Of a stretch of 64,000 nucleotides of DNA, positions 1,927 through 39,517 are shown one piece after another. Position 1 is the stretch's first letter, and each line of letters opens with the position of its first letter. The notes under the pieces are model-generated. The model did no database searches. It worked only from the letters and a program-made list of their open reading frames with translations, and was not told where the DNA came from. The DNA is from Plazaster borealis (lineage: Eukaryota > Echinodermata > Asteroidea > Forcipulatida > Labidiasteridae), in contig JAJGQC010000535.1 in the NCBI GenBank assembly GCA_021014325.1, positions 1 to 64,000 on the forward strand, given 5' to 3'. The translations under genes and the position numbers were made by a program.

Positions 1927-1996
1927 ATGCTACCGCCACCGGGGTCTTCATCAGTAGTGCTGATGGTCCTACTAGTTTTGTCAATACAACTTCAAG
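1927..1996 (+). CDS. Leader exon L1 (signal peptide), unlike the other leaders
   Basis: ATG followed by a proline/serine start and a hydrophobic core (VVLMVLLVLSIQL), 23 codons plus one base, then a GTAGGT donor. It ends in phase 1 and joins the V exon at 5428 in frame (G+TT gives Val). The sequence is unrelated to the MVLQRM leaders found elsewhere in the window, so this unit is an older or separately acquired branch. No transcript start is visible. The ATG was chosen because it precedes the hydrophobic stretch directly. Confidence 0.6.
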
Positions 1997-2199
1997 GTAG
2001 GTCGATCTATTGTGGTGGGTGTCCGTGTATGCATTAGGGATCTACCAAATACAATACGTGTACTTGGCTACATCATACATGATACATGTAATATAATATC
2101 ATGATCATGATTATCTCTATGATTTGACGAATGGTGTATGTGGTGTGGCCCTAGTACAGCGTATTATTGGCACTATTTATGTAGGTCATTGAGGTACCT

Positions 2200-2410
2200 G
2201 GAGGTTTTCTATACCTCCTTGGGTTTTCGCAAAGAAAGATCATGTGAGACCCAACTTGCATTATTGGTTGATGACTTACAATCAACGTGTCGTTACATCA
2301 GCGGAGCCAGGCTGATCTCATAATTATGGGTTTTAGCAAAGCATTTGACACCAGAAACTCCTGGGCTAAACTCGACCACAAGCAGTGTTTTAGCTTGGAT
2401 TTGAAAAGTG
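2200..2410 (+). mobile_element. Reverse transcriptase remnant (LINE)
   Basis: GFRKERSCETQLALLVDDL in one frame and ADLIIMGFSKAFDT in the next, the motif 2-3 region of LINE reverse transcriptases. Frameshifted and with both ends missing. Confidence 0.7.
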
Positions 2411-2419
2411 GAAGTGCAC

Positions 2420-5400
2420 AAAATAGGGAGTGTAATTTTTTACACAAAAACCCCCCAACAACACACAGAGTGCAAACACAAGCACAGTACGCAAACTCTT
2501 TAAAATTACCTTGAAAATGTAACTTAAGTATGTTTATCCATTGTTTTAGAGCCCAGCCGGAAGCTTCATTTACCGATTGTATACTCTCTCATTCTCAGGT
2601 GTATTCTGCGCAGTGAATTTGGATTGCAATGTACATGTAGTCTCCTCCGAAGACGTTTTGTTGAGGAGTTCATTCTAAGAAATTAACTTGTTTGTCCTTT
2701 AGGATCAGACTTTGTTAGGACCATAAAAATCATTAACGCAACAATTACAATTTACAAATTTTGGCCAAGACATCTTTAAAATTTCACAATAATTTTGCTT
2801 TACATTAGATTTTTCTTCCTTTTCCCTCATTTTCACCTAATGATCACCCAAAATGTATTGACTGATGTTCAATGATCTTGTGTCATGGTGGCTGAAAAAT
2901 TTAAACTGAAATTTGTTTGGTTTTTATTTAAAAGAGGGACTTCCCTAAGCTTGGATTGTTCTGTTTCGTTTTGTTTTTTGCTGGACGGACTAAAATCACA
3001 CTTATAATGAGTCGCCCGCAATTGTTTTTTCCATGGGCCCGCATGTGATGTGCACATTTTGAAAAATGATGGGGGGAAACCTGAAAGCGGCGTTCGCAAA
3101 ATTGCGTGTTGAACAATCGCCATCGCCTAGTTTGTGCCTTTAATGGCAGCATTTTCATAACACATCAATGGATTCCTGAATTGAGGATGTATTATATTAG
3201 AACTTCTTTTGCATGGCGTCTTTGCAATTCAACGATCAGTACATATTCGACATTGATGACAGATCACCGAAGCACCGCATACGACGACAACGCACATCGG
3301 CGGCATCGCGGAGGCAACGTTAAAACAAGGTGTCCCCGCGCCCCCGGCGAACGTTCACTATGTTGATGGTACAAGGCCGTGTGTAGTACATAAATCCGAA
3401 GCCTCCACTACCCACTGAGCAACTATTTTTTACTCGACTTGTGAACGTGTACCTACCAAGTTGGAGTCTAGCCACACTTTTCATGAATATGAATATTATC
3501 TACAGCCAATCATAGCGTGCCAATAGATGGACTTTGGACCCTGTGGCTGGCTGCGCTACACAGACGCGTGATTTTCTGTTTTGGGTCTGTGCGTGGTAGA
3601 TAGTGCACGAGTGGTGAATGAAAGCAAGCATAAAATCTACAACGATCGTGGCCATGTCAAAAGTCAAATGTAGAAAAAAATATCCAGCTATTTCAAACCA
3701 TTTCACGAGCTATAGATTTTGTGACAAGGAAAATAGTATTGTTCTCACGACCAGAGCGGACTAAGGTAAGGTATTGACTCGCCCGCTGCTGTTTTCAATC
3801 CTATTTGGCGACCGTTTATTACGAAAAACGAAATAGGGGAAATTGAGTCAACCCTTACCTTCGAGAAGAAACCTTTTACGGTGACTTTCATTTCTTCGAT
3901 GTCGTTTTCCCTCTTCGTTTCCAAAAAAGCTTGGAAGTTTACAGATACACACGACTAAGCACCCACTCATTGGGGCGTCCATGCGATTGCGAGGGGAGTA
4001 TTGCTCCTAGGGTTAATTTTGCCTCACGTGTTACGAATTCCACATTCCGACTAAGACATAATGCGACTTTCGTCTTTTGGGGATCGGGGTCAACAATGTT
4101 GTTTATGTCTTTCTCTAATTATTAAATTCTAAAACCATTTTTGTTAAGGGACAAAATATTAATTCAGCTCATATTTCGTACTGTAGAGACACGGGAAGGA
4201 GGCCGGCCCTCTTTAATAAAAAGGAAGAGCATGTTCAAACTCCCAACCACTTTGGCTCTAGAGCTCATAATATCTCTTGATAAGGTGTTTTTCACTTCAA
4301 CTTCCGCTTTCGATTGGAAGTAAAAGTCAAATAGGGTCACACTTCGTGTAAGATTTGTACGATACACTAAGATTTTTCATGGTGCAAAGATCTTGTATGT
4401 AGCTATAATGGTTCTCAAGATATGATTTTTTTGAAACATTAAACGTTGATTTAATGTTGTGACATCATCGAAAACGTCATCATCCCAAGCCATTTGTGGT
4501 TTCATATACACACTAAGTTCTAAGTACATGGTAAGTTTCAAGTCTGAACTCTTTTTTGTTCATGAGATATAAACTTTTGAATTATGAAATTTCAACTTCC
4601 GTTTCGACCGGAAGTAAAGGTCCAATGATGTCTCACATTGTACGTGATTTGTACAATACGTCAAGGGCTTTTATGTGGTGCAAATACTTCGTATGTAGTA
4701 CATGGTAAGTTTCAAGTCTATGCGACCTTCATTTGTTTGCGAAATCTTGATGAGAAGGTTCAGTGAGAAGGACGAAGATGGTGGAAAAAACAATATAGGT
4801 TTTCGGCTGTTGGCCGAACACCTAAAAACAGAACAAAATCAAGAGGTGTTCGTGCACATATTGCACGAACACCTAACTAGTAAATAACACTGTTGTTATA
4901 ACATGATGACATCATCGGGTGTCAAACACTAAGCCAAAGATTATTACGTGTATTTCAAAAGATTGTAATGTACATGTGTACAGTAAGGCCGTGTCAAAAC
5001 TGGCAGCTACAGCTATACGGCTACGGCTAAATTTCCGCGTCATCATGCGTTGAAGAATAGGACGTCCTTAGCAACACTCTTAGCAACAGACGTAGCCGTC
5101 TGTAGTCGCCAATTCGGATACGGCCTATTTCACAATGATACATTTGTGTCGTCATATGTACTTGACCCTTGGAAGGGGAAGGGACTGCAAGCAGTACTGT
5201 TAGCAACACACAAACTTGTGTAAATTGCACATTTTTTCGGCATGTTTAAGTGTTTTAAACTACTTCTTAATTGTTGCAATAAAACAAGTAAATTTGATTT
5301 GTACACTATACAGGTGTACATGGTTTTTTTTACAGACTTTAGCAAAGTCTACACTTAGTACCGGACCATGGAATTCTTTAAATTGATATTATAATATTTA

Positions 5401-5427
5401 CTCTGTGTACATTATTTCTACTTCTAG
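2420..5427. other. L1-V1 intron, mostly unassigned
   Basis: Contains copies of the CTTCCG...CGGAAG repeat (4300, 4590), a small palindrome GTTCGTGCACATATTGCACG near 4849 and a foldback near 3760-3865. No exon fits the array phases here. Confidence 0.4.
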
Positions 5428-5793
5428 TTTCATTAGGTCAAACAGTGACAGTGAGCATGAAGCCTTTATATTACAGTAACCCTGCAACATCTTCAGCAAC
5501 ATTGACGTGTGAGTTCAGTGTAGATGATGGGACATACTCATTTTTTAATCTGGAGTGGAGAATAGATGGAACAATTGTTGCCGACTTCTATAATGGTGCA
5601 GCAGATCCACTGTACCTAAACCATTGTTCGTCATCCAGTAGCTGTACTATAACGAGAACCAGTGACAGTAGTAACTTTACCATTACTTCTTTGGATATGA
5701 CAAGAAATGAAGAAACATTCAGCTGCCTGGTGACATTTCAATTGGGGACTGACAGAAGGAACGGGGAAGACTCTGCATTGCTGGTAGTGGTTG
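5428..5793 (+). CDS. V-type Ig exon V1
   Basis: Extracellular V-set Ig domain of 122 codons, phase 1 at both ends (acceptor CTTCTAG, donor GTGAGT). The first Ig Cys is in TLTCEF, the core Trp in LEWRIDG and the second Cys in ETFSCLV. An extra Cys pair lies between them (NHC...SCTI), which other V exons of the window lack. The usual D-x-Y-x-C motif is changed to E-x-F-x-C. It joins leader 1927 in frame and could join the C2 exon at 7843 or any later phase-1 exon. Confidence 0.72.
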
Positions 5794-6399
5794 GTGAGTC
5801 AACACGTTTACATTGTACAATTGGACAGTTTTTGTTGTAACATGGAAAACAAAATAAAATTTAATACAAATAATACATGTTCAATGTACATTATAAGTTT
5901 GTAATTAATTTGTACTATTTGTGTATTAGGAACAAATGAGTTTCATGTAAGTGCGTGCACATGAAACTTACAGGACAGACATTGCTAAAAAAAGATACAT
6001 ATTGTACAGTCGATTTCCTAGTTCTGGGCTTCTTGTTTTGTTTCTGATGACATTTTGTTACATTGTTACTATTGTAGCTTCGTAAACAATTTTTGTTAAT
6101 TGCTGTCAAAATTATTTACTGCTAGTATCCATTAAGACTGCAATAGATAATACATCAGGAGTCTCTAAAATGTAAAATTAGCTAAAAATTATGTTGCATT
6201 TTGAACTGCGAAAACCAAAAAGAACCCAAAAACAAAACAAAAAACAAGCAATCATCAAATAATTTTCTTGATTCTTGTTATGTATTTAAAAACAACAACA
6301 ACATCAACGACTGTTCATTTGTTTCAATAACTAGGCCCTACACATTTGGTGCTTGATACAAGTATGTGGCACAATGTACCCCCTCATCATTCTTATCTC

Positions 6400-6920
6400 A
6401 AAAACCACGTGTTTTTGTATCAAAGTTGAAATTAAATGTTTCAAAAACTATAACTTCTAAACCACACATTGGGTTTTTACAATATATGCAAATTATGTAA
6501 CAACTTAAGAAAAGATACACAAAATGTGACCCCATTTGGCCTTGACTTCCTGTTCAAACCGAAAGACGAAATTTAATACTTGAAACAATCATAACTCCTG
6601 TACCACACAATTAATTTTTACAATCTTTACATCATAAAAAGGTCTTTACAATTTAAACAAGCGCTACACAAAATGTGACCCTCTTGAACTTCACTTCCGG
6701 TTCAAATCGGAAGTTGAAGTTTGATATTTTAATTAATCATAACTCCTTAACCAGACTTTGGTTTTTAAAATGTATACATCATTTTAATGGTCTTCAAAAA
6801 GTCAACAAACGCTGCACAAATTGTGAACCCATTTGACTTTGACTTCCAGTTCAAACCGGAAGTTGATTTTTAATAACGAAAAAATCCAACTCCTGAACCA
6901 GACATTGGATTGAAAAGGTA
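6400..6920 (+). repeat. Tandem repeat of about 150 bp, three units
   Basis: Units contain ACAAAATGTGACCC, CTTCCGGTTCAAA-CGGAAG and CATAACTCCT. The CTTCC...GGAAG palindrome recurs near 6546, 6695 and 6843. Related pieces occur near 4300, 4590, 17040, 24290 and 24445. Confidence 0.6.
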
Positions 6921-7531
6921 ACATGTCGACATTAATTCATTCACTCATAATTTGATGACATTACTCTCGAACACCTTGTTTTTGTGATGTCACAAAAACT
7001 GAATATCTAGTTATTCTTTTTGTTTTATCTTCTTTTTCCCCCTTAACCCTTCTCCAAATTAAAGATTGAAATTGAATTGAACATTGAACCATACTATATT
7101 ATATATTAACTCGCATGGTAACATGAAGATGGCCCAAATCCTTCTGGATCCTCCTTTACTGCTATGCCCTGACAGCCCAAGTCCTCCTCATTCCTTCACA
7201 ACGGTAAAGAGGATATTGAAGGAGTTGGACTAGTTAGGGTTAACAGAAAATTCTCCTCGTTTCCAACGTAAGCCAGTTGGAGTATTTTTTGCAGATTAGA
7301 CATGGTAGGTTTAAACCTTGGCCGTGAGCCACGGCTGAAAAATATGACATGGTATGCTGGAATCTCGGATTGCTCGGACTTCCCATTGAGCCGAATGTAA
7401 TGACGAACAATGGTGGCAGGCTGTCCATTCTTGGACACGTATGTCACATTTGTTTAACAACAAGACAAATGTCTGCAATCGGGAGTTACACAATAAACCC
7501 CGGAAAGGGGAAATGTTTGCGCTTAAACACA

Positions 7532-7720
7532 GGGGCGGATCCAGGATTTTCCAAACGGGGGGCGTGAAAATATTCCAAGCAGCAAAATGATAAATGAAGT
7601 TTGTTGCCCCATTTCTCCCTCCCCTTCTCTCTCTCCCTCTTTTTTTCTTTTCTCCCTCTTTTTTTTTTATATATGAAAGGGGGGGCGTGCGCCCCCCACG
7701 CCCCCCCTGGATCCGCGCCT
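7532..7720. mobile_element. Foldback element with GGCGGATCCAGG ends
   Basis: GGGGCGGATCCAGG at the left and CCTGGATCCGCGCC at the right. Between them are pyrimidine-rich tracts and a GGGGGGGCGTGC/GCGCCCCCC hairpin. It produces long spurious minus-strand frames. Confidence 0.7.
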
Positions 7721-7842
7721 GAAACATGTCATCCGACGTGAAGTGGTTAAACAGTGATTTGGAAGTACATGTACATTGTAGTAATATCTTGACATTTAAC
7801 ATTGCAGGATTTTCTTTATTTTGTGCATTATTGTATTTTCAG

Positions 7843-8173
7843 TACCAACAAACACCATAGTAATGTCAAATGGAAGCTCATCACAGGCATCTACTGATGG
7901 TAAGCCTTGATGTGGCCAGTCACATATTTCAATGCGCAGTTGCAGGCATCAATCCACAAGCAACATTCACCTGGACAGTTGGTGATGAGCCGTTGTCATC
8001 AGACAGCATTACAGAGAGCCATGATGTTGATCCTGGCACTGGCTTGACAACGAGTACAAGTAATGCTGCACTGACTCCAAACCCAGAATACAATGAAAAG
8101 GACCTCAATTGCAAAGCAGTAAACTATAAAGGTGATCCTGGAGTTATGTTTCGCCTGCTTCCCAAAGTGGCAG
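7843..8173 (+). pseudogene. C2A-type Ig exon with a one-base frameshift
   Basis: The exon opens VPTNTIVMSNGS in phase 1. The homologous reading (FQC, NPQATFTWTVG, DLNCKAVNYKGD) is in the next frame, with the shift near 7900-7910. The exon is 331 nt, while its relatives are multiples of 3 (327 or 330). Acceptor (TTTTCAG) and donor (GTTAGT) look usable. It is either a recently broken exon or an assembly/sequencing error. It is the only C2 exon close behind V1 and has no C2B partner. Confidence 0.6.
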
Positions 8174-9614
8174 GTTAGTCCAGATTGGATAATTTGATTT
8201 CTTAATTATTTTCTTCCTATAAATTGATATTATACTGTGTTCGAAACATCATTCCGGTTCTTCTCAGAACCACTTCTCCAAGAGAAATTGTACCACATGG
8301 TTATTGCTTTAACACTATATGTTATCCTATTGTACTCGGACCATGCAAAGCTTCAAAACATTTGATGGATACATCATTCAATTTCTCCATATTTTCTTCA
8401 TCTTGCTCTTACATAAAGTAAAAACCTCTGGTTGTACCCTACATTGCCATGAAACACATAATTACATGCAAAACCTGCAATTATGGGTGCATGGTTTTTC
8501 TTTGGTGTCTCCACACTCTCCATATAAATCAGACTAAAAAAACAAACTTCAAGTAATCCATTTACTATTTGAAGAAAAAAACAAACTTAACTAGAACTGA
8601 ATTTGTTAGTTACGAACAAATACTGGGGTTTTGGCTTTAACAAGGCGAACTATTAAGAATTGAATAATGTCTTGGTGACGTAATGTAGTTTGTTAATTAA
8701 TAAGTTGTCACAGTCCCGATGATGGAAATCGATTGTGGGTCAAGTTAACGAAAATGGAACCTGTCGCTTTAGGGCGCTTTTTTATAATGAAATTTCTATT
8801 ATATTTGAATTTCCAGTTTGGAACAGATGGACCGGTATAGGTTCGGGTCATGTGGGAGGATGAAATGTCATGAATGTGGCTAAAATATGTCGTAAAACTA
8901 TAAATGAAAGATAAAGTACATGTGCTGTAAAGGTACAAGTGGCACAGAGATTATATGGTTGAGACGATATACAATTTTAAATAATGAACTACCACGCCAA
9001 GGCTAAATTTATTATTAATCTATACCGCACAGACATTGAAAGGAATTGTGATGGGAAAATTCATTGAATTTACGTGGGGATAAACTGCTACTAATGTCCC
9101 CAAAACGCTTCCGTATTAAATTATTTGTAATTGTCTAAATCACCCTATAACGCGTCCGTGTTTAGTTGTCTTTACTTATCTTCATATCCCAAACGCGAGA
9201 GGGCGCTAATACAAGTCCACCATTGATTGTATTATGCCGTCGTTAGATAGACCATGGCAAAGTAGTGAACCAAATGCATAAATGTGAAGCCCAAAGGTCG
9301 GAACGATGCCACGCGTGGGATAATGGCTGTGTGTGATGTATGGCCCGTATGCTACAGCGTCAATTACTTGTAATGTACACAGACACGGCAAGATAAACAT
9401 AATTTTAGTTTTCTGTGTAAGGACAAGTCAATGCTTTTTACTGAAAACCACAAAATGAGATTGAGTTTACTTCTCCAAAAACCATTGTTGTATTTTACCG
9501 TTATTACCAGCCCACATATTTGTTTAGAGAATACTCGAGTAGTTTTGCAAATCACCTTTAAAGAGTTATAAACTTGAAAAGTGTTAAAAGCCTTGATATG
9601 AGGCCGAATTGATC

Positions 9615-9951
9615 TTAAAGGGTCTGTTTACGTTTGGTAATGACTCTGAAAATTAATGGCAATGAGAACTTACTTGGTAAGCTTTACAGCAGCTTTGGAT
9701 AGTCTAATGCTTTTCGAGAAACTTTTCACTTCGAAGTACTGCGGTCATGGAAGAATATATCACTTTGTGTTCCCCAAAAATGAATCTTAGAAGCGTTTCT
9801 GACAGTAATGTTTCTCAGATTATGTATTTCAATTGCAGATTATTCTTCCTGCGTGGACATAACTGCTCCAGATTTTCGGCAATATTTCAAAAACGCTACC
9901 CAGGATTGAAACAAACAGTGGGTTCTAATTACCAAACGTATACAATCCCTG
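9615..9951. mobile_element. Foldback MITE
   Basis: Terminal inverted repeats: TTAAAGGGTCTGTTTACGTT at the left and TTACCAAACGTATACAATCC at the right. Same family as 13847-14166. Present in copy A of the duplication and absent from copy B. Confidence 0.6.
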
Positions 9952-9965
9952 TGCGAATCCATCTG

Positions 9966-10308
9966 AAAGGAAGGGTATACCATTTGTATTTACTCCTAAA
10001 ATTACTGACCATAAAACATACTATGTAAAGAGCACTTGAGAACTGCTGATTATTATAAAACTTTGTTAGAAACGACACCCTTTGAAGTATGTAGTTTAGG
10101 AGAAATAGGTGGTTTTTTTCAACAAAATATTTGAATCTGTGAAAGGCTTCAGGCATGAAGCCTTTCTCAGGCATTTAAAAGCACATGATTCTGCAACAAG
10201 GGTGTTTTTTCTTTCATTATTTTCTTGCAATTTCGATGACCAATTAAGTCCAAATTTTCACAGGTTTGTTATTTGACAATTACCAAAAGCATACCTTGCC
10301 TTTAAACT
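9966..10308. mobile_element. Foldback MITE (TTTGGTAAT family)
   Basis: Left end AAAGGAAGGGTATACC, right end GGTATGC-like in inverse (TTACCAAAAGCATACC). Includes the hairpin GGCTTCAGGCATGAAGCC near 10146. A collinear copy lies at 42275-42648, so it predates the segmental duplication. Confidence 0.6.
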
Positions 10309-12449
10309 GCCAAGTAAAGTGTGATGTCACAATATAAATCACCATGGTAATGTAGACGACCCATCTTAAGATGGATCTTAGTGCTTAATGAAATTGACCT
10401 CTGTCCCTTCCAAGGAGGCAACGGTGAAATGTTCATTTTTGTCCTTTTATAGTGGTGCCCTTTTGTAAGGAAACATTTGCCTTGCCCTTTACAAGAACAA
10501 ATCTCAGACTTTGACCGTTTTTTATTTCATTAGCTATTTCTTTTTGTTTACGCAGGGTGAACCAAATCATTACAACTTTAAAACCATCCATGGTAAAACG
10601 GCTGGTCTCCAGTATATTACAAACAATAAAGAAGTGTGTAAATGTATGATACAAACTTAGTGTATAATTGACTATAATTGGTTTGGAATGATAAACTATG
10701 CCAGTTTGAAATGATGTGGTAACCTACACTGTTGTTCTATTACATAACCTTTAGCTTTTGAATAGTTTGTCAACTCCATTGAACGTTTTGACGATCTTCA
10801 TTCGTTCTGTCTTTGTTATGTTTGTCCGACGTTCTAGTTCCTGCTTTCGTTCTGTTTGTTTGTCCTCCCTGCATCTCACCACAAAAGCACAAGCCTAAAA
10901 GCTTCTAGAAGATGCCTCCACTCTTAATTAATGTTCTGCCGTGTAAAAATGCCTTTTTTGGTTACTTCTTTAAATTAACGTTTTGGCTACATGTACTGTT
11001 TGGAAATTTTAAAGAGTATAAAAATAAATGTGAGTTTAAATTGAAAAAAAGGAATTGATTAAAGTCAACACAATGATTGAATTTCAGATGGAAAAGTCAA
11101 CTCGTCATCTTATAAGCCATGTCTCTACAAGGGTTTTCTTTTATTCGGACACTTACATGTTACAATAAAGACTGTCATATTACTTAATTACATCACATTA
11201 ACAACATAACTGTACATGTACGTAATTGTCATTTAATTATGATTAACAATGTAGTAATTATGAGGGGTGACAAAATAATGGTAGTCTACAATAAAGCGTA
11301 ATTTCAGACATAATGTCAACTTGGTGTATGTTTGACCTTTTAACTATGACCTTCTAACAGCTGGGGCCAATTTCATAAAGCCTGTAAAAGAATGGTATGG
11401 GATGCGTGTGCGGCTCGGAAAAAATGTTGATGACGTCATCATTCTTTGTGGTAAATTTCAGGGTACTCGCACAAAAAGAAAGGTGGTTTCAGCTGTGGGC
11501 AGAAACCCCCGGTAAAGAGAGTGTCCAGAAAGAAGTAATTAAATCCCATGGGCAGATCAAGGAACTTCGATTATTTAAAGCTAGGGTCATACCTTTAAAT
11601 ATGACTCTGAAAAGAAATTGTGTATTATCCAAAAACCTACCTGTATGGTAATGGTTGTCAGTAAGCATCCTGCAAAATTATTTTATCCGAAGTAACCCCA
11701 TTGATAAGATATCAATAAAAGTGTGTCAAAGAATTTGAATCTCCAAAGATTGCCTAAAAGCGACTTTGGGGAATTTCCGTGGTGTCCGTTTGATGCTGCC
11801 CTCAATACGGCCATATACGGTTGGTACCCACTAAACGTGGATGGATTCAACGTTCTTGGTGAAAATACCATGACAATTTTGGAGTGTTTTCTCAACAAAT
11901 TGACACTGTATTCAACCGAAACTTCCACAAGTGACTTTTATTGTATCCTTCTTGATACCTTTGCCTATAATTCAACATTACGTGGACTAAAACCATACGA
12001 TGATCCCACAGACACGAACACATTTGCATTCGTATGGGTGCAATGGTTTCGGCCAACGGGGAAAAAAGAGATGGACATTGGGGAGGGGGCAAATGGGGAG
12101 CAAAACAAGTAACTGGTGGATTCCCCCCCCCCCCCGTTGCGTCGACGCTTAGCAACTTTTGTTATTCAGATCAGGAGACTTGCTAAGTACCGCGATAATA
12201 GGGGAACCCACCATATATTTTTCAAGTGTGAAGAAAATTCGTTGACGCATTGTCAGCTTTTCTTGGTTGTCGACTGAACAAAACTAATTATAAGAGATAA
12301 GTTAACCTTGCCGTCTGTTGAATTCGTTATCAAAATCATCTTCGTTCGGCTTCGGTTTGTAAAGTTACCCAACAAAATTAAGTAACATATAAACTTCTGA
12401 ATGAGTCGAACGTTCACAAGTGGAACGGTTGACCGATCTTTGAACTGTT

Positions 12450-12754
12450 ATTAAATTGTTGATTATGATCAAAACACCATACGTGTACATGGACTTGTAC
12501 GTCGGCACTCAATGTGAAGCTTGACATGCTAGATTACAGCAAAATATGTTCCCAAATGAGGAAGTAACTTCCATTGTATGTATACTGCGCTGCAAATTTG
12601 AATAAATGGATTTATTGTACTTTCAATTCATAGTCTTTCAAAGCAGGAAATGAACGTGATATTTATTAGGATCTCGTGTTACAACTAATTTGACATTATC
12701 AACTAAGCTGACAATTGGGACCACACTCGCCCCATAGTATGGTTTACATTCATT
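12450..12754 (+). promoter_or_regulatory. Shared upstream module of leader L2
   Basis: Part of the upstream sequence common to eight MVLQRM leaders. GGAAGT (ETS core) at 12560-12565 and ACCACA (RUNX core) at 12720-12725, 30 bp before the ATG. Promoter function is inferred from conservation among copies. Confidence 0.5.
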
Positions 12755-12818
12755 ATGGTTTTGCAGCGCATGAAGATGTCAGGACAATTACTGTTCATCG
12801 TTGGAATACTGTTTAAAA
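12755..12818 (+). CDS. Leader exon L2 (MVLQRM type signal peptide)
   Basis: 64 nt: ATG, a short basic head (MVLQRMKMSG), a hydrophobic core (LLFIVGILF), and one base of the next codon before a perfect GTAAGT donor. It joins V2 at 13459 (A+CG gives Thr). A second in-frame ATG at codon 6 could also serve as the start, since in sister leaders only that one is always kept. It lies at the 3' end of the duplicated block 9395-12830. Confidence 0.75.
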
Positions 12819-13079
12819 GTAAGTTATTATGAGTGAACATTTTAAATGCAGAATTTTTTTTAACGAAAACGGTCATTCCTTTTTTACGAACAACTTATAG
12901 TTACAATAATAATGACATCTATAGCAGCTGTGTCCACAAATTTAAAGTGCTCATGGCACTGGCTCCCGTAACACAGTTCCTCATTTGGAGGCTACCCTTA
13001 ATGCAAGTGGAAAGAAAGGTGAACAGTGGGGTACTGCATAAAAACAGCAGCAGACTGAACAATAACTCCAAAGTCTCTA

Positions 13080-13255
13080 CACTCTAAGAGCTCCCGGGTC
13101 AGAATTGACCCGGCTTCCGGGTCCCAGGGTGCCTGAAACATTTCCGGGTCAGGCTCTGGCTGACCTGGAAAGTGGTTAACGGATGGGATTTTAAACCGAA
13201 TTATGCGCCAGTTTGACCCTATTCAGGGTCTTTTTGACACAGATTCATTGATGCT
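13080..13255. mobile_element. MITE with TCCCGGGTCAGAATTGACCC end
   Basis: Left end CACTCTAAGAGCTCCCGGGT and following GGGTC repeats. The right end is missing. Related copies: 33108-33170, 38148-38335, 48988-49187. Confidence 0.55.
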
Positions 13256-13458
13256 TTTGAAAATAAGAATTTTCATTTCATTTCATTTTTTATATAAATG
13301 TCACATGTGAAAATATTTGTGATTCTTGTTTATTAATCGATTTGTGACCACACGAAAAATATGCACCCCGTACAAGGTCCGTATGTGCTATCACACTTTA
13401 GGAAAAGCATTATAATCCTATAACAGACACCTCTCATCGTCCCCTTTTTTCCCTTCAG

Positions 13459-13836
13459 CGTCTTGTGGGCAAGGGACGGTGACAGTATCTCCGAACGTGA
13501 CGGTTGACAATGGCAGTCCAACAACACTTTCCTGCAGATACAACGTAGACAATAATTACTTACTCTTTAACATAGAATGGAGAAGGGGGGAAAGTGTGCG
13601 GGATGGTATAAGAATTGCTGATTTTGTTAATGATGTTGATAATCCAATATACTACAACAACTTCAGCTCATCAGATTACACAGCCTCTAGAGACAAACTT
13701 AATGAAATAGCATCATTAGCTGTTGCTGCTGTAAGCTTTCAGGATGACTCGGAACTCTTCTGGTGTACTATTCAAGTGTTTACTTCGGGGATGCCGGTGG
13801 TGTATATCAGTGCTTCAATTGAAGTGATTGTGACAG
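13459..13836 (+). CDS. V-type Ig exon V2
   Basis: 126 codons, phase 1 at both ends (acceptor CCCTTCAG, donor GTATGT). Ig landmarks: TTLSCRYN, NIEWRRGE and ELFWCTIQV. It carries N-glycosylation sequons near its start and middle. It is more diverged from V3/V7/V8 than those are from each other. It follows leader 12755 by 640 bp and precedes the C2A/C2B pair at 15839 and 16587, so a full leader-V-C2A-C2B set is present here. Confidence 0.75.
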
Positions 13837-13846
13837 GTATGTTAAG

Positions 13847-14166
13847 GTGTTTAAAGGGAAGGTGTATACGTTTGGCAATCACTCTGAAAATTAGGCTAAT
13901 GGTAAAAAAACTACTTGGCTAGAAGTACAGCAGCTTTCGATAAAAAGCCTTTTGAGAATTATTTCACTTCGAAGTACTGCGGTTATGGACAAAGATATCA
14001 GTTTTTATCCCTCGAAATTTGAATCTGAGAAACGTTACTGTCAGATACGCTCCGGATTTTCGGCGATATCGCCAAAACGCGAATTTTTCACAGGTTAGTT
14101 TTATTGTACGGTATATCAAAACAATGGAACGGTTCCAAAAGCCAAAGGTATACTTTCCCTTTAAGA
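13847..14166. mobile_element. Foldback MITE in the V2 intron
   Basis: TTAAAGGGAAGGTGTATACG at the left and CAAAGGTATACTTTCCCTTT at the right form imperfect terminal inverted repeats. No coding capacity. Confidence 0.7.
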
Positions 14167-14449
14167 AAACACAAATCATTTTACCAACATGCCCACATGT
14201 AACTTCAAACAATCCACAAGAACACATTGTACTGCAGTACACGATGTACATGTATTAGGACAGGTACGATGTACAACTATGTACAGATGTGTATTGTGTA
14301 TAATCTGTAGAAATTCCATCCCATTTAGTCCTCATGTTTTATCGATGAAAACAAAAATATTTAATAAAAAACATTTTTGTCAGGTGTTTTGTGCACATAA
14401 TGTGAGTTCAACTTAGTTCATCATGTACACACACAAATGTCGGGTTGTC

Positions 14450-14579
14450 GGGCCTTTTCGAAACCAGCGCTTGAGTTTGGCTCAGGCTTATGCCCCGTCC
14501 GAGGCGCACGTTTTCTTAACAACTAACGGAGCCTAGCTACACCTAAGCCGGAGTCCAACCTGAGATTTTGAAAAGGGCC
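14450..14579. mobile_element. Small foldback element
   Basis: GGGCCTTTTCGAAA at the left and TTTTGAAAAGGGCC at the right, 130 bp, non-coding. Confidence 0.5.
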
Positions 14580-15458
14580 ATAAGTTCCGGTATACCTACA
14601 TGCATTTTGATTGATTCAATCAAAGATAAGCTGTTTTGAGGTGTTGTGGAGGTCTCTAATTAATGCTATTTTGTCAACTTATAAGGTTTAATGCATTGTT
14701 TGTAATGTCGCGTTCTGTATGTTATGTATTACGAATTCTATGTATAACTTAAAATTTGATAATATACACGTGTAATATTACAATAAATCCTCCAAATAAG
14801 ATTTTTTTTTTCTTTTGAGTGGAGCTCTTAGACTCCGTTTATTCAACTCCAGTAATTACAAAGTACAGACATCTTCTATGGAACATTAATGCAAGTACTG
14901 ATAAATCAATACATTGAGTACATAGAGGTTACTAGAAACTAAAGCACAATGAACAAAAGGTGATATTACATGTCAAACAAAAAGAAGATCAAAACATGAT
15001 AAAAAGCAAATTAGTACAAGTAAAATAATAATTTATCTCAGATTTAAACATCCCATTTTCCTCCAATAATTACTCTTTTCTGTACTTTGTCTGTGATTAA
15101 GTTGTTTTTGTTTCAAACAGAAAATAGACAATGTAGAATAAAATGGCATTTTTAATCATAACATCATCCAAGAAAATAAAAACAAATCATCTTTAAATGC
15201 TTTCAATGTTGACAAGAATAGTTTGTTAAATTTACTTGTTACGTTACTTATTCAACTTCTCAGAAACGTGCATGTATAACAACATTTCATGCAATTTTTA
15301 CCCGAGTCATTTTATATTGAATGACTACAGTCATGACAGTGATGGACATATGTGGACATAAACAAAGATATCATGTTAATTTAATATCTTTAGGAGACTG
15401 TGAATTGAAAGAGTGTGGAAGATAGCTTTCTGTTTCAGACACATGTTTTTACTATAAC

Positions 15459-15790
15459 GGGCGGCAAAGTTGGCTTGTCCGTAAAGCGCTCGCCTTCCAA
15501 CAATGTGACCGTGGTTCGATTCCCGGTTAGGGCCATTATATGAGTTGAGTTGTGCGTTGGTTCTCTCCTATGCCACTAGGGTTTTCCTCCCTCCGGACCC
15601 CGGAAAAAAAAACTTTAAATCTCAGGCTGTGCTCCGTGTTCATGGGTCGATGTGGCTGGCTGCCAAGGGCACCTTGGCATGCCTGCGGCTCGAACACGTT
15701 GTATAGCCGCGTACTTCGCATTATTCAGCTTCTCAGCTGCGAGTAAGGATGATTATAGCCTCTCAAATTAGTACCATTATTATTATGTTA
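15459..15790 (+). mobile_element. tRNA-derived SINE
   Basis: Pol III B box GGTTCGATTCCCGG near 15513, a tRNA-like head, a body shared with 30795-31085 (GTTGTGCGTTGGTTCTCTCC, GATGTGGCTGGCTGCCAA, TGCGAGTAAGGATGATTA) and an AT-rich tail. Confidence 0.75.
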
Positions 15791-15838
15791 TTACGTACAT
15801 GCGCATTAAATGTTGACAACAAATATTTTATAATGTAG

Positions 15839-16165
15839 TTCTCCCATTGAGCATCACAATATCCGATGAGACTGGAACCTATCCTCCTGATGGTACATCA
15901 TACCTTGTAGAAGGAGAGGAACGTCAGTACGTATGTGTGGTACCAGACATTAATCCAGGAGCTACATTCACTTGGACTGTTGGAGGTCGGAGTCTTACAC
16001 CAGATGGTAACTCTGGTATCACTAGTAGTAATGGGTTAACAACTAGCAACAGTACAACCACAATAACAGCTGTAGCAGGAAACGATGGAGAGATGTTACA
16101 ATGTCGAGCGTCAAACAAGAATGGTCATGATGGAGTTTCTACCACTGTGGTGCTGGATGTCAAAG
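15839..16165 (+). CDS. C2A-type Ig exon (set 2)
   Basis: 109 codons, phase 1-1 (acceptor AATGTAG, donor GTAATT). Landmarks: VPLSITISDETG-like opening, ERQYVCVVPDINPG, ATFTWTVGG, EMLQCRASNKNG, ending VLDVKG. Relatives in this window start at 24979, 27539 (broken), 49519 and 59495. It is always followed within about 1.3 kb by a C2B exon, so the two are probably used as a pair. Confidence 0.78.
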
Positions 16166-16586
16166 GTAATTATTAACTGTGTGTACATAATGTACTAAGA
16201 GTTTGTAATTGAACTTACAAGAACAAAAACCTAATTTTACATCGTGTACATCAATGCAACCTTTTTACTTTAATTTGATATGCCTTAAATATTGTTCTTT
16301 AATTGCAAAACACCATGTTTAAAGTTGATGACTTCTTGATACTTCTTCAATGATAAAGTGTCTTTGTAGAGTCATTCACTGTACATAATTGTATTGGGAC
16401 TTTCACTTGTTGCATACAAAACGTTTTATACCTTGTTAAATGTGGTTTTTAGTATGTTTCTTTTTGCTGTTAAATGTTAATTTGTACATTTTCATTTTCA
16501 ACACAACTTCAAATAATTATTGTAGTTTGTACATAAACTGTATATGTAAATTGAATAAACAGTTTTTATTATATTTTATGTTATAG

Positions 16587-16913
16587 TGCCCCCGAAGGCT
16601 TCATCGATGTCGCTATTAGATTCCAGTGGACCCCTTGGAGATCCAGCAGACGTTGATGAAGGCACAGAACACACATTTATATGCAGGGTTCTGGGTACCA
16701 AACCAGCTGCAACCATCAAGTGGTATATTGATGATGTAGAGCAAACAACCACGACTCCAGCCCCTGGAGTAGGCAATGGACTGGTGGACACGGAAAGTCA
16801 CTGGACATTCATTCCGCAGAGGGTCAACCACAAACAGATGGTCAAGTGTGAGGCAAACACTGCAGAGTCAATTCCTCCATTCCCTTCAGTGTCTACTACA
16901 TTGAATGTCATTG
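16587..16913 (+). CDS. C2B-type Ig exon (set 2)
   Basis: 109 codons, phase 1-1 (acceptor TTATAG, donor GTAAGT). Landmarks: VPPKASSMSLLDSSG, HTFICRVLGTKPAATIKWY, VGNGLVDTESHW and QMVKCEANTAES. The central stretch around GVGNGLVDTESHW is nearly invariant among C2B exons. After this exon no stop-containing terminal exon or transmembrane segment is seen before the next leader, so the transcript must continue to shared downstream exons or end in an unrecognised exon. Confidence 0.78.
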
Positions 16914-18216
16914 GTAAGTGACTGATAAATTGATTTTGTTTTGATTTTTTTTTTAAACAGGTGTTTCTGTGAAAAAAAAGCCTTACTGATCATTTAACAC
17001 AAAGGATCAATATTGGTAAATAGTTACATTTATTTGAACTTCCTGTTCAAACCGGAAGGCAAGGTTTTAATGTAATTTGAAACCGATGACCTCGTGATGA
17101 CGTAAGTTGTTCACAAGGAAACGTTAAGCTATGAGATTGTTTGATAACAAAATCCATGTACAAAACGTACAGGCTTTGGCTGGTAAGAAAAAACTAATGA
17201 TAATAATAACATAAAAGAAATGTTATAAACAGCAAAAAATCTGGTCCCGAAAAGGTGGTTTCGGCTCATGTCCGAAACCCAATATAGGCAGTGTCCAGAA
17301 TTTGTTATAAATCCCATGGGCAGATCAAAGAATTCAGATATTTAAATTCAGGGTCATACTTTGGTAATGACCCCGAAAAACAACTGTGTACTTTATATCC
17401 GAAAGCCTATACATAAGTAATATAAAGATGGTAATGGTAGTAAGAATCCTGCGAAATTATTTCGTTTGAAGTGCCCTCGTCTGTTGGTGAGAATGTAATA
17501 AAAGTATAATGTCGACAAATTGGATCTTCAAAGATTGCCTGCTGGTGACCTTTGTACATTTCCGTGGTGTTCATTTGAATGCTGCCTTCAATACGTCAAG
17601 ATGTGGTTGGTACCCGGGTTCGACGTTCCTGATGAAAATACCATGACAGTTTTTGGGGTGTTTCCTCAACTAGTTGATAGCTGAGACTTTCATAGGTGTC
17701 TTTTTTTGTATCCATATTGATAACTTTGCCTATAAATCAGCATTGTTGACTAAAACCAATAAAATTCAATTTCGGCCATCGGGGGAAAAAGAGGTGTGAA
17801 TTGGGGAGGGGGCAAATAGGAGCAAAGAAAGTAACTATAGAGAATCCCTCATCCCACCCCAACCCTATCACCACCGCTAAACAACTTGTATTCTAAATAA
17901 ACGTTCTAAATACCGCGATAATAAGGCGACATTGTTATTTATGTGAAGACAATTCTTTGACGCATTGTCAGCTTTTCTTGGTTGTCTTTTCAGCAAAGCT
18001 AATTGCCCGTAAATGTTCTTGTTCTTGCAAAATCAAGGTGACATTTATAAGAGATAAGTTACAAGACCAGATGTTAAATTCGTTATCAAAATCATCTTTG
18101 TTTGTAAAAAGGCAAAGGTGGTTTAAGTAACATAAAAGTTGTGAATGAATCAGAACGGCTGACCATCTTTCAACTGTTATTTGATTATGATCAAATTGTA
18201 AAAACACACCTTACAT
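16914..18216. other. Spacer after C2B (set 2), shared with other sets
   Basis: Homologous to 51072-51750 and 60900-61500 (GATGACGT-ATGACGTAA-TTGTTCACAAGG, GAGATT-TTTGATAACAAAAT). It links each C2B exon to the next leader module and shows that the duplicated unit is C2A-C2B-spacer-leader-V. Confidence 0.6.
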
Positions 18217-18350
18217 GCAATATAGGGCGTAACGCTATAAATTTGGGCGTTATATAACGCCTGAAATATAGAGCGTTATAACGCTGTTTGGCGTTATAAC
18301 GTCGTAGTAGGGTGTCAAAACGCCGTATAGGGCGTTGAAACGCCGTACTG
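18217..18350. repeat. Cluster of GGCGTTATAACGC palindromes
   Basis: At least six copies or half-copies of GGCGTTATAACGC-type palindromes in 130 bp. Found only upstream of L3, not in the sister modules. Confidence 0.65.
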
Positions 18351-18399
18351 AAATAGAGTTATGCTGTTGACGGAAAACAGCCCCGTACGTATGTCCGTG

Positions 18400-18644
18400 T
18401 GCAATTTCAACTTGAAGCTTGAATGACTTAGTAAAAGAACAGTAAACTGCGGAAGTAACCTTCAGTTTGTGTACATTGCGCTGCCGTTTTGAATAAATGA
18501 ATTTTATGTGTGTTCAATTCATGGTCATGACAACGAAAAACAACCATTGTATTGAGTAAGATCTCGTGTTCCAACTAGTTTGACATTATCAACTAAGCTG
18601 ACAATTGGAACCACACTCGCCCCATAGTATGGTTTTCATTTAAT
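18400..18644 (+). promoter_or_regulatory. Shared upstream module of leader L3
   Basis: Copy of the common module. GGAAGT at 18451-18456 and ACCACA at 18610-18615. The second ETS-like site of some sisters is absent. The distal part is interrupted by the palindrome cluster 18217-18350. Confidence 0.5.
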
Positions 18645-18708
18645 ATGGTTTTGCAGCGCATGGAGATATCAGGACTATTACTGTTCATCGTTGGAATACT
18701 TTTAAAAA
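18645..18708 (+). CDS. Leader exon L3 (MVLQRM type signal peptide)
   Basis: 64 nt, MVLQRMEISG head and LLLFIVGILL core, ends in phase 1 before GTAAGT. It lies 395 bp before V3. Its distal promoter holds a palindrome cluster (18217-18350) that the sister promoters lack. Confidence 0.75.
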
Positions 18709-19102
18709 GTAAGTTATTATCTATGAATGAGTATTATGATCTTTATTCAAATTTGTGCACATTATCTAAGACACCGTGGTCTACCAATTCAACTTTGCAG
18801 GATTGTGTCACACTACTATTAGGCTGGTAAATTAATTATGTCATTTACACTTCTTCAATGGGGCTATTCTATTATTTTGAAGCAAGAATAGACAGGCTGC
18901 CACCATTTTGTATCATTGTATTGCGGCTCAGTGGGAGGAAAACAAGTTGGAATATAAACCCGAAGTGGTTTAAAGTAAATTCCAATGCAATTGGGCCCAG
19001 CCGTTCATTTATCCACTAAAGTGCATACAATTGTACCTTTTTATAGCTGTCTACATAAATTTTCGAACAAGAATTTAAAAACTTTTTTTTTTTTTTTTTT
19101 AG

Positions 19103-19501
19103 TTACTAATGGTCAAGTAGTCACAGTGATTCTGCAATCTGAGGCCAGTTATGATGGCGACCACACTGCACTTTCTTGTTCCTACGCAATTCTGAACAGG
19201 TCATATATAGTATTCACTCTGAGTTGGTTCAAAGGAGAGAGTACTTTAGACCCATCTACCAAAAAGATTGCTGACTTCATTCGGGAAGGAACATCTCCTA
19301 TATATTCCAGTGCTTATGATGACCGATCACGATACAACATATCCAGATCTGGAGACAGTGGTAATTTCATCAGTACTTTTGACATATTTAACGTGGAATT
19401 TAGCAGGGATAGAGGGCGGTATTGGTGCAGAGTAACAGTGGTACAATCTGATGGAATGAACCCCTTGGACGCAGATGCCTCGACTGATCTGATTGTCTAC
19501 A
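19103..19501 (+). CDS. V-type Ig exon V3
   Basis: 133 codons, phase 1-1. The acceptor follows a 20-T tract (T(n)AG) and the donor is GTAAGT. Landmarks: ALSCSYAIL, LSWFKGES and GRYWCRVTVV, with the R-D-R-G-R-Y-W-C segment of V-set domains. It ends STDLIVYS, with no J-like FGxG motif. It is about 84% identical in protein to V8 (54663) on the far side of the kinase, and most differences change the amino acid. Confidence 0.8.
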
Positions 19502-19899
19502 GTAAGTACTAGAACATTATCAAAATGAAACCATCACAAATCTGTTTTTGTGACATCATTGGAAACACGGTGTTCGTGTATCTGATCTATAATGTGGTTG
19601 TTTTTTTTAGTGTTTTTTTTTTATTGAGGGCCTACATGTTTTAATGTTCTTTTTATTGCAAAATCAAGGTGATATTTACAAAACCATTATGTTAAATTCG
19701 CTGTCGAAATAATCATCGTTTGTAAATTGTCAAATAAACAAATGTGATAACAAACCTGTTGACAAATAAACAAATCTGACGACAACTCTTTTGACACTCT
19801 TTGCATTTATTTTGAGTTAAATAACATAAAACTTGTGAATGAGTCGAACGTTTTCAGGTGGAACGGCTGACCGATAATGAACTGCTATTTGATTGTGAT

Positions 19900-20207
19900 C
19901 AAATTGTAAAAATACACCTTACATGTACATGGACTTGTCCGTCTGTATTTCAACTTAAAGCTTGACTGACTATTATACCAAAAGAACAGCAAAATGTGTT
20001 CCCAAATGCGGAAGTAACCTCCATTGTATGTATATTGCCGTGCGAATTTGAATAAATGGATTTAACGAGTTTTCAATTCATAGTCATTCTAACCAGGAAG
20101 TGAACATTACATTGAGTAAGATCTCTTGTTAGAACTAAATTGACATTAAACACTAAGCTGACAATAATTGTGACCACACTCGCCCCATAGTTTGGTCTAC
20201 ATTCATT
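19900..20207 (+). promoter_or_regulatory. Shared upstream module of broken leader L4
   Basis: Well preserved although the leader is dead. GGAAGT at 20010-20015, CCAGGAAGT ending at 20101, ACCACA at 20173-20178. Confidence 0.45.
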
Positions 20208-20270
20208 GAGGTTTTGCAACGCATGAAGATGTCAGGACTATACTGTTCATCGTTGGAATACTGTTAAAAG
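20208..20270 (+). pseudogene. Broken leader L4
   Basis: Aligned with the other MVLQRM leaders, the start codon reads GAG instead of ATG and one T is missing in the hydrophobic core (CTATACTG for CTATTACTG). The length is therefore 63 instead of 64 nt and a stop appears in frame. The donor GTAAGT and the promoter, including two GGAAGT cores, are intact. With V4 it forms a dead cassette. Confidence 0.75.
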
Positions 20271-21711
20271 GTAAGTTATCTATTAAAAAGTCTCGTTCAC
20301 TTAAGTACCTCTAACAAAATGAAACATCACCTATTGAATATGTATTTGTAGATCTAGGACATACTGGTACAAAGACTGTTGTTCCGATAATTATTTAAAT
20401 TGACTAGACTAGTCTCATTGTCATTGTCATTGTTTGTCCTTGTCGTGTCCAAGTCCTTGTCTGTCACAGGGAAATGTACAAAAGCCGTATGCTTAACTTT
20501 TTTTCCCTGCATGTTGGCGAGCATGTTAATTACACTCGATATTATCTTTGAAATTTCTATACATTTTATTGTTGAATTATGTGGCATCCATCTTTTCATA
20601 ATTATACTCATTGTTATTTGTTTCAACTGTATGTTTAATTGTCATTGTCAGCATGAAAAATAAATGTGCATTGAATTGAATTGAATTGAATTGAATTATT
20701 AGTGAATATTTGAAATGCAGAAGATTTGTACACAAAATACAGTCATTTTTCTTTGGGAATAATTTTGTATTTAGGTCTTGTTTTTCTTTGACGAATCCTA
20801 AAAATGAACTTTAAGGAAACTGTACGTTTTGTGCTCTCCAATGATAGTTATGAGGCATAGTTATTATTTTGTAAAATAATTAGGTTTTTATTCTGCCTAC
20901 ATTGTGTTTGGTTATTTCTTTGAGAATGTTGTGCGTGGTGTTTCTGCTACAAGGAAGGTCTACTGCTTTTTACAGTAGGTTTTTGCAGTTTTTAAAATAA
21001 TTCCGCCCAGGAATTTAAAAAAAAATAGGTTTTTTGGTAAACCCCTTTAAGACGATGTAGAAACAGATGGAAGAAGTAATTGGCACTGGGAGAATTAATT
21101 CACCTTGAAAACTCCATTTTGACTTCTGTGGTCAAAAGGGATTGCCATTACTTTGTACATGTAAATCTCAGCAAACCCTCAAAGGGTAGATTGCCCACCT
21201 TGTTTGAAAATAATCATCAATCATCCTTATCCAGAGGAGCTTGTCCCTGTCAGAAAAGACTGTGGGATACTTGTTTGACAGGTGAAGGTTTTGTATCAGG
21301 GTAACGCTATACTTATAAAACAAACATCCACTTGTGGGGGGGGGGGGGTTGTTAGTAAGGCCATGGAGGAAGGAAACACAAGGCACTGTAATCCTGCCGG
21401 TCATCAACCCATTCATAAAAACATGTTGAGGGTATATAAACTACTCTTTATAGGAAATAAACATCTCTAGCTCCTCTGGGGGGTATTATGCTTGAAAATG
21501 AAGTAAAAAAGCTTGCATACCCCGGGTGTAAACTGATTTCACAGACTGCATGAAAATGTAGTAGGGCCGCCGCAGAATGATAAGGTATTACGTAACACAC
21601 AGTACAGGGTAATATTTAAGATACTTTGAAACATAAAATTATGTGGGTGGTTCGAGACTGGCAACAAACTTAGTTCGTTATTTTTGTGTACATGTGTCTT
21701 GTTTTGTTCAG

Positions 21712-21755
21712 TTAGCAATGGTCAAGAACCCATAGTGACTCTGGAGTCTGGACAT
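21712..21755 (+). pseudogene. V4 relic: 5' end of a V-type Ig exon
   Basis: After a good acceptor (TTTTGTTCAG) the sequence starts VSNGQEPIVTLESG, matching the first 13 or so codons of V7 at 52869. Homology then stops and stop codons follow. The rest of the exon is lost. It belongs with the broken leader at 20208. Confidence 0.6.
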
Positions 21756-22281
21756 CTTGGGATTTTCACAATCTGTAGATTGCGCTCTGAATATTAAGCA
21801 GCTCAATCTCAAATCGTGCGCAATCTTTATTTGTGCAATCCCAAGAATGCGCTCCACTAGACCAAAGTTGCAAGGTCCAATTTGGACATCAATCCAGATT
21901 TTTAGCCGAAAATGTACATTTTTTCTAGAAATGTATCTGAAACAACCGTACCAATATATTCAGCGGGATTATTTCCTGTTTTTCTCGGGTGAGCTTTAAG
22001 TATATCATAGAGGTCTTAGATGGATTTTGGAGCAGTTTTTTTGTTACTCCCTGTTTGGGGGTTGTGAATCCTGTGGGGCAAATTTGCACAGTACAACAAA
22101 CACATGAGCGTTCACTTCGGATCCTATACATACGCCATCCATTTTATGTACAATGTTTGAAATAAAAACCTCTCCAGCAACTCGTAATATCTCCAAAACC
22201 AACACACAGTGCTTGCCTTGGTTGATGTTTTATTGTTATTACCATTTGCCCTTTTCCTTGTTACACAGATCACAGAGCTTC

Positions 22282-39517
<17,236 letters not shown>

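Follow-up and report, generated by a model that had tools for sequence, protein, structure and literature searches.

We find that the window, i.e., the complete 64,000-base stretch analysed (bases 1-64000 of the 94,985-base contig C443; GC about 37%, zero N), encodes a receptor tyrosine kinase on its + strand, the 5' part of which consists of tandem leader/IgV and leader/IgV/C2/C2 cassettes. With a probability of roughly 0.84, we read it as a 5'-cassette receptor tyrosine kinase gene that places varied V ectodomains on one shared Ig-Ig-FN3-TM-kinase half. In this way, a single gene can probably give rise to a set of receptors that differ in their binding head but keep one internal switch. This reading is supported by open joins between cassettes and shared half, by a single such half in 64 kb, by conserved blocks in front of the leaders, by the genome layout and by gene models of Asterias amurensis. 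It is weakened by a short cassette protein annotated in Asterias rubens (P0046), by a poly-A excess behind the V7 exon, by D1 exons without leader block and by one D1 exon (C16 9281097) without a listed kinase. Anatomy, frames, block conservation, genome layout and the matching Asterias models are direct observations.

The 3' kinase half and its cassette arrays

Exons were called from open frames, splice sites, phases and relatives; leaders were called from hydrophobicity. The shared half is one set of D1-D2-FN3-JM-TM-K1-K8 exons with GT-AG borders (30088-39517):

30088..30405, + strand: D1, first shared exon (Ig)
31190..31525, + strand: D2, Ig (Pfam I-set/Ig_3)
31857..32141, + strand: FN3 exon (Pfam)
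32801..33085, + strand: JM, membrane-proximal domain with six Cys and an RKRRRR furin-type site
34153..34290, + strand: transmembrane (TM) exon, TM judged by eye
36172..39328, + strand: kinase exons K1-K7, overall span
36172-36384, + strand: K1
36755-36865, + strand: K2
37229-37416, + strand: K3
37562-37684, + strand: K4
37974-38085, + strand: K5
38426-38522, + strand: K6
39229-39328, + strand: K7
39440..39517, + strand: K8, C-terminal tail with tyrosines and stop

The stop codon lies at 39515-39517, with AATAAA at 39545. A tblastn search (E 0.01) places the D1, D2, FN3, JM, TM and K exons at one place each in the 64 kb. Joining L3-V3-C2-C2-D1-D2-FN3-JM-TM-K1..K8 over 16 junctions gives an open frame of 1168 residues. 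Chance ORFs as an explanation of the exons are ruled out by splice sites, phases and homologs. The K6-K7 intron holds a CAG/CAA-type microsatellite (38700-38860), which is the source of long spurious Q/A/S open frames.

The encoded protein has a leader, an Ig/FN3 ectodomain, one TM and a complete tyrosine kinase (Pfam PK_Tyr_Ser-Thr, 2.6e-94; several Ig families and FN3 are also matched), i.e., all parts of a receptor tyrosine kinase. What we take to be the glycine loop, HRDLAARN and DFG are recognised in the kinase exons. Among the best 60 of 2562 PDB chains, 59 are FGFR1/2 and the top one is named EGFR, a ranking by sequence score and not by a tree. A three-Ig FGFR ectodomain is not found; five Ig-type exons, FN3 and the furin-site domain are present instead. 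Within JM, the six cysteines and two RKRRRR arginines are invariant among 12 aligned kinase and non-kinase sequences (the window with P0005, P0007, P0008, P0011, P0013, P0016, P0024, P0028, P0029, P0031 and P0033). The relatives P0023 and P0025 have no basic run at the position of the furin site. Many receptors of the JM-bearing family may be two-chain molecules, made by the predicted furin-type cleavage.

Upstream of this half (unit 1), we find the following features:

1927..1996, + strand: leader exon L1, differing from the other leaders and outside the set with the conserved 5' block
5437..5793, + strand: V1 exon, phase 1-1, open; no Pfam match alone
7843..8173, + strand: C2 exon of cassette 1, frameshifted
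12105..12754, + strand: conserved 5' block of L2, promoter-like, about 650 bp; the same kind precedes L3-L8 and L10
12755..12818, + strand: leader exon L2
13459..13836, + strand: V2 exon; Pfam V-set 7.7e-6; 76% identity to the V of A. amurensis P0005
15839..16165, + strand: C2a exon, cassette 2
16587..16913, + strand: C2b exon, cassette 2
18645..18708, + strand: leader exon L3
19103..19501, + strand: V3 exon, without own C2 pair before the next leader block
20207..20270, + strand: broken leader L4; one-base deletion, first ATG lost
22778..23152, + strand: V4 exon; Pfam V-set 9.8e-7; counterpart in A. amurensis P0010
24979..25305, + strand: C2a exon, cassette 4
25977..26309, + strand: C2b exon, cassette 4
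27528..27854, + strand: broken C2a exon with stop and frameshift; open counterpart in A. amurensis P0010
28203..28510, + strand: broken C2b exon, frameshift

The first-pass annotation had described leader-V-C2A-C2B cassettes in which each V group is followed by paired C2 exons, feeding a single set of TM and kinase exons. Its leaders at 1927, 12755 and 18645, V exons at 5437, 13459, 19103 and 22778 and C2 pairs at 15839/16587 and 24979/25977 hold up. The pairing does so only in part: an intact C2 pair is present in two of the four V groups ahead of the first kinase half, while L1-V1 has one frameshifted C2, L3-V3 has none and the extra pair at 27.5/28.2 kb is broken. Likewise, the single TM/kinase set is right per unit and not for the locus, as a second D1-K8 half lies on the contig at 66992-75551, just outside the window. 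The locus limits of 1927-39517 are too narrow, given that this half belongs to a second array at 45-64 kb:

45079..45142, + strand: leader L5, start of the second array; V5 46947-47324; C2 49519-49845 and 50742-51071
52243..52306, + strand: leader L6; V6 52869-53261
54146..54194, + strand: leader L7, GTG for the first ATG, other ATGs kept; V7 54663-55061
56111..56174, + strand: leader L8; V8 57622-58001, frameshifted; C2 59495-59824 and 60351-60680
61989..62052, + strand: leader L10; V10 62573-62929; C2 from 63861, continuing past the window end

For V5, a start at 46971 was dropped, as 46947 agrees better with the V5 copies. V7 has its B-strand Cys replaced by Tyr. This change and the split of V8 recur in a 99%-like copy on scaffold C16, which is not independent if that copy is the other haplotype. 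The V7 frame (54663-55276) is open beyond its donor into a hydrophobic stretch, while the V3 and V6 frames stop at once; a short membrane-anchored V7 form is conceivable from this frame and from the poly-A hexamers behind V7 (see below).

The cassettes are linked by direct repeats of 60-97% identity. Given these repeats and the restricted genomic spread of the leader blocks (see below), we consider the cassette layout more than chance. L2, L3, L5, L6, L8 and L10 encode nearly one 21-residue leader peptide. Intact starts in unit 1 are limited to L1, L2 and L3, which keeps the diversity of the unit small. An old segmental duplication relates 9.4-12.9 kb to 42-45.2 kb (about 73-87% identity), i.e., the surroundings of L2 and L5 including non-coding DNA. 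By eye, we also see minus-strand retroelement-like open frames in array introns at 26622-27125 and 45653-46691.

Joins, leader blocks and V domains

All intact ectodomain Ig exons are of phase 1-1. For unit 1, seven of seven tested joins from a leader to D1..K8 are open, namely L2-V2-C2-C2, L1-V1, L3-V3, L3-V3-V4-C2-C2, L3-V4-C2-C2, L1-V1-C2-C2 and L2-V2. As the intact Ig exons share one phase, this tells us that frames permit sharing, and no more. The second array gives open joins for L5-V5-C2-C2, L6-V6 and L10-V10, but not for L8-V8.

The uniform phase would equally suit a giant receptor, i.e., one multi-Ig protein made by consecutive splicing of every V and C2 exon, with the leaders skipped or kept as in-frame relics. 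Yet the broken C2 exons would stop such a transcript in unit 1, and eight conserved blocks with leader exons are at odds with it. We thus consider a giant receptor hardly credible, and come back to it with the Asterias models.

To characterise the blocks, we aligned the surroundings of eight leaders (L2-L8 and L10, leaving out L1) with MAFFT. From about -650 to +100, mean pair identity per 50 columns is 0.61-0.94, compared to 0.38-0.49 further upstream (-1000 to -651) and 0.48-0.63 further downstream (+100 to +399). The V exons behind these eight block-bearing leaders nevertheless come from several subfamilies. We also compared four cassettes that carry different V types. Identity is 78-86% over the 300 bases preceding the ATG, 91-95% in the leader and 68-76% in the V exons; a far-upstream control of 63-72% gives the background of the gap-optimising alignment. 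Given these identities, block and leader form the common part of a cassette and the V exon its variable part. An in-frame stop is found 13-21 codons upstream of 8/8 leaders tested, which suits start exons but is a weak sign since such stops are common in AT-rich DNA; for L1, it lies 16 codons upstream. The conserved block of about 650 bp would be the promoter of each cassette, as far as its conservation can tell.

A further reading is that of a decaying tandem family. Here, the cassettes are separate short genes (perhaps for secreted V-C2-C2 proteins) or kinase-less 5' remnants, and the nearest cassette alone serves the kinase. Several cassette parts are broken and the V7 frame continues into its hydrophobic stretch, both of which fit such decay. 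We also find a poly-A hexamer in eight of the nine gaps behind cassettes, with five behind V7 compared to a shuffle mean of 1.6 (3/300 shuffles reach 5). Over all nine gaps, however, the hexamers are not in excess (32 vs 27.2; 51/300 shuffles reach it). Furthermore, no D1-or-later homolog lies between cassettes, neither in the window nor in the three units at 11.25-11.345 Mb of C16, and only 280-315 bases separate V6 or V3 from the block of the next cassette. On balance, we consider decay clearly unlikely and the shared half the better account.

The V exons are 20-84% identical to V3. When single exons are scanned, V2 (26.5 bits) and V4 (29.4 bits) pass the Pfam V-set cut-off of 26, V10 and V5 fall below it, V6 is matched as generic Ig only and V1 and V7 show no match. 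V1, V3, V5, V6, V7 and V10 align with V2 and V4, and a profile of all eight V exons matches VHH, TCR V-alpha, amphioxus IgVJ-C2 and PD-L1.

We also compared rates of change over the copies, leaving out pairs with at least 60% synonymous differences. Pooled dN/dS is 0.43 for V2, 0.91 for V3, 1.15 for V5, 0.72 for V10 and 0.76 for V2b; the two V6 copies are identical. The C2 classes range from 0.38 to 0.82, D1 shows 0.63, D2 0.83, FN3 1.52 and JM 0.14. For K3 and K4, dN/dS is 0 (dN is zero vs two C16 units), while K1 shows no synonymous change and a small dN. That is, the V exons are looser than JM and kinase, not looser than FN3 and not clearly driven; strong positive selection on them is not found in the pooled dN/dS. 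The alike kinase exons of neighbouring units would fit a constant output, or simply recent duplication.

Arrays in the genome and in other sea stars

Compared with the first half of C443, the second is 100% identical in protein for K1-K8 and TM, with 99% DNA identity over 8.8 kb. Its D1 (66992-67281) is frameshifted, by polymorphism or sequencing error; the C16 copy at 9245333 is open. Units 2 and 3 of the contig are 98-99% alike, and a third array starts at 81.1 kb.

Searching the genome with the D1 protein yields at least 15 matches, i.e., at least 14 exons, two of them on C443 and 12 on scaffold C16 (13.6 Mb). A search with the L10 block yields 50 pieces, 11 of which were merged with neighbours of the same block, such that at least 39 blocks result, all on the + strand. 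At least 12 are on C443 and at least 27 in two clusters of C16; they occur nowhere else among the matches listed. We find 35 of the 39 blocks 5.2-25.2 kb upstream of one of eight D1 exons, with 2-7 blocks each (lower bounds). On C443, at least 3 precede the D1 at 30090 and at least 5 that at 66992. The respective lower bounds on C16 are 3 (9205185), 6 (9245333), 5 (9281097), 7 (11277328), 2 (11296944) and 4 (11333463). The remaining four blocks lie behind the last D1 of C443, where the contig ends.

Kinase exons follow seven of the eight block-preceded D1 exons; behind the D1 at C16 9281097, none is among the matches listed (133 of 1010 candidates scored). No such leader block is near 6 of the 14 D1 exons found in the genome. 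One of these (C16 10835684, - strand) is preceded by V10-C2-C2 and a C2 pair, but shows no leader and no kinase in the 30 kb examined.

At 11.25-11.345 Mb of C16, there are three units, each with L-V and L-V-C2-C2 cassettes followed by one D1-K8, besides a few V pieces and one C2 pair without own leader. In the third unit (11333463-11345278), D1-D2-FN3 is about 90% identical to that of the window and the JM, TM and kinase exons 43-93%. As JM, TM and kinase are much changed here, the output half is not constant everywhere.

The small size of C443, the likeness of its units 2 and 3 and the match of its 47.8-66.5 kb to C16 9.226-9.245 Mb (99.1-99.3% identity, 97.6% beyond) raise the question of an assembly artefact, in which an unplaced contig would have been built by stringing haplotypes together in tandem. 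Judging by these identities, C443 probably represents either the second haplotype of the C16 region or a copy of it that arose very recently. Still, the window's cassettes differ far more than alleles do. The layout is found again on C16 at 9.19-9.28 Mb, and at 11.25-11.345 Mb it has other cassette numbers and 72-97% identity in matched pieces. Given its presence on C16 apart from C443, we reject an artefact, to which we attach next to no weight.

Relatives were taken from two protein searches, the first with 27 proteins (7999 best candidates scored) and the second with 36. Asterias, Patiria and Acanthaster rank first, followed by distant brittle star, sponge, NCAM, Dscam and nephrin-like proteins; the relatives from Patiria and Acanthaster are less close, at 33-53% identity. 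NCBI labels the sea-star models uncharacterized, ROS-like, Mer-like, TYRO3-like or nephrin-like. These names are misleading. The Asterias models named ROS-like or uncharacterized belong to the window's receptor family.

Eight NCBI models of A. amurensis, each standing for a 90% cluster (27 sequences over all eight clusters), are most informative about sharing. From D1 to the C-terminus, P0005, P0009, P0010 and P0012 are identical at 829/829 residues (P0010 at 828/828 plus one gap column). P0006, P0007, P0015 and P0026 carry the other half, identical at 824/824; the two halves differ at 3/824 residues plus 5 gap columns. By best window match, the ectodomains of the first set are V2-C2-C2 (P0005), V6-V3 (P0009), V10-L-V4-C2-C2 (P0010) and V10-L-V4-C2 (P0012). 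The second set has V6-V3 (P0006), V10-V3 (P0015), V10 alone (P0026) and a V about 43% like V2 plus C2-C2 (P0007). Thus, four different V ectodomains sit on each of two halves, as gene models and not as reads. Each set would come from one gene, judging by the identity of the halves and by how the isoforms are labelled (X4 and X11 in both sets). Together with the several blocks before eight D1 exons in our genome, this agrees with the first-pass proposal that different leader-V starts are joined to one D1-K8 half.

The V-V pairs in P0006, P0009 and P0015 and the second leader amid P0010 and P0012, which is perhaps a model error, are what a giant receptor could leave behind. However, each of the ten Asterias models of the shared half examined holds at most two V domains. 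Sharing of one half by several cassettes, as in these models, also speaks against a decaying family. A. rubens P0046 (LOC117301798) speaks for one: this V2-C2-C2 cassette is annotated as a separate protein of 380 aa with its own end. Its tail has no convincing match in the DNA compared, and it is the one short cassette protein found among 4117 candidates of 201-639 aa. Two further A. rubens models, P0016 and P0018, place V6 alone on the shared half; between the window and P0016, this half shows 80% identity (630/786 aligned residues).

In P0008, a V2-type V, C2, C2, D1, D2, FN3, JM and TM are joined to a non-kinase tail in an open frame of 1048 residues; the record (5524 bases, open frame) is cDNA-like. 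P0008, P0029, P0031 and P0034 share this kind of ectodomain and have a long tail with many tyrosine motifs (e.g., LIYMEV) and no kinase. The tyrosine-tailed sisters next to the kinase forms suggest paired kinase and adaptor-type receptors, going by their domain content.

By sequence descent, the receptor falls into a family of Ig/FN3 kinase receptors from sea stars, which also has sister forms that lack a kinase (P0008, P0029). Descent from Dscam is not found, the closest relatives being the sea-star kinase receptors and their non-kinase sisters; Dscam-named proteins outside sea stars show 27-30% identity over about 42%. In a tree of 30 V domains, window V10, V4 and V3/V7 group with Asterias V domains on starred nodes, and so do V2 (94/86) and V6 (94/97) on nodes just short of starred. 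V5 joins the V4 group from outside. V1 is without close Asterias partner; its branch is long and falls with V4/V5 and the V domains of Patiria. Given the grouping of window and Asterias V domains, most V types predate the species split, with recent turnover adding and losing copies.

Proposed mechanism and known systems

In the account we favour, each cassette comprises a promoter-like block together with a leader exon and a single V exon, and may or may not include a C2 pair. Transcription would start at one of several blocks (promoter choice), and splicing would then connect the phase-1 end of the cassette with the D1 acceptor at 30088, likewise of phase 1, leaving out any intervening cassettes. 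Alternatively, the cassette might first be joined to a neighbouring V or C2 exon and then to D1. Receptors with different V ectodomains and an identical Ig-Ig-FN3-TM-kinase half would result, and a possible cut at RKRRRR would turn them into two linked chains. Arrays and halves have been duplicated in tandem. Of these steps, we infer promoter activity, splicing in Plazaster borealis and cleavage.

The most likely function would be surface recognition of varied ligands (a microbial surface or that of another individual or cell type) by coelomocytes or epithelia. By analogy to neurons picking protocadherins, single coelomocytes or epithelial cells might even pick one of dozens of leader-V promoters, with the shared kinase reporting microbes or foreign tissue; we regard such somatic choice as a tentative and rather doubtful idea. 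The V domain is the domain type of antibodies and T-cell receptors, and immune recognition in echinoderms is a long-standing question. Whether echinoderms have diversified V-domain receptors becomes a question that long-read cDNA can answer.

In vertebrate clustered protocadherins, tandem variable first exons with own promoters precede shared constant 3' exons, with arrays side by side. The variable exon encodes the whole cadherin ectodomain and TM, the constant part a short cytoplasmic tail. In the sea star, the cassette is leader-V(-C2-C2) and the constant part Ig-Ig-FN3-TM-kinase. The first pass had compared the layout to protocadherins with V domains, and the comparison is apt: tandem cassettes with own first coding exons share one 3' set; V4 has lost its own leader. 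The sponge Geodia has an Ig-type ectodomain on a receptor tyrosine kinase as well, with variation that is said to be allelic, in which it differs; we know of no such array in the Geodia kinase.

Within the literature searched, which most subscription journals lie outside of, we found no echinoderm V-domain kinase array described. The main text of two sea-star genome papers (PMC9270726, PMC10625585) contains neither "tyrosine kinase" nor "immunoglobulin".

Another parallel is given by the sDscam alpha/beta genes of Chelicerata. According to the main text of PMC4835542, which also describes promoter use in clustered protocadherins, they have tandem 5' cassettes of a leader and one or two variable Ig domains, each with its own promoter, and shared 3' exons. 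Exons of different cassettes can combine, and the genes themselves are tandemly duplicated (PMC4835542). The word "kinase" does not occur in that main text. As far as this source describes sDscam, the likeness thus covers tandem leader and Ig cassettes spliced to shared 3' exons, optional combination of cassettes and tandem gene duplication. The molecules differ: sDscam has Dscam-derived Ig7 or Ig7-8 and no kinase, while the sea star, an echinoderm, has V-set and C2 domains on an FGFR-like tyrosine kinase.

That is, the layout is known from clustered protocadherins and sDscam, while the molecule, a V-domain kinase array, is undescribed as far as our searches reach. Known arrays of such layout serve adhesion molecules; what is shared in the sea star is a signalling kinase, and what varies is a V domain. 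If our reading is true, the cassette layout would have been invented once more, apparently independently.
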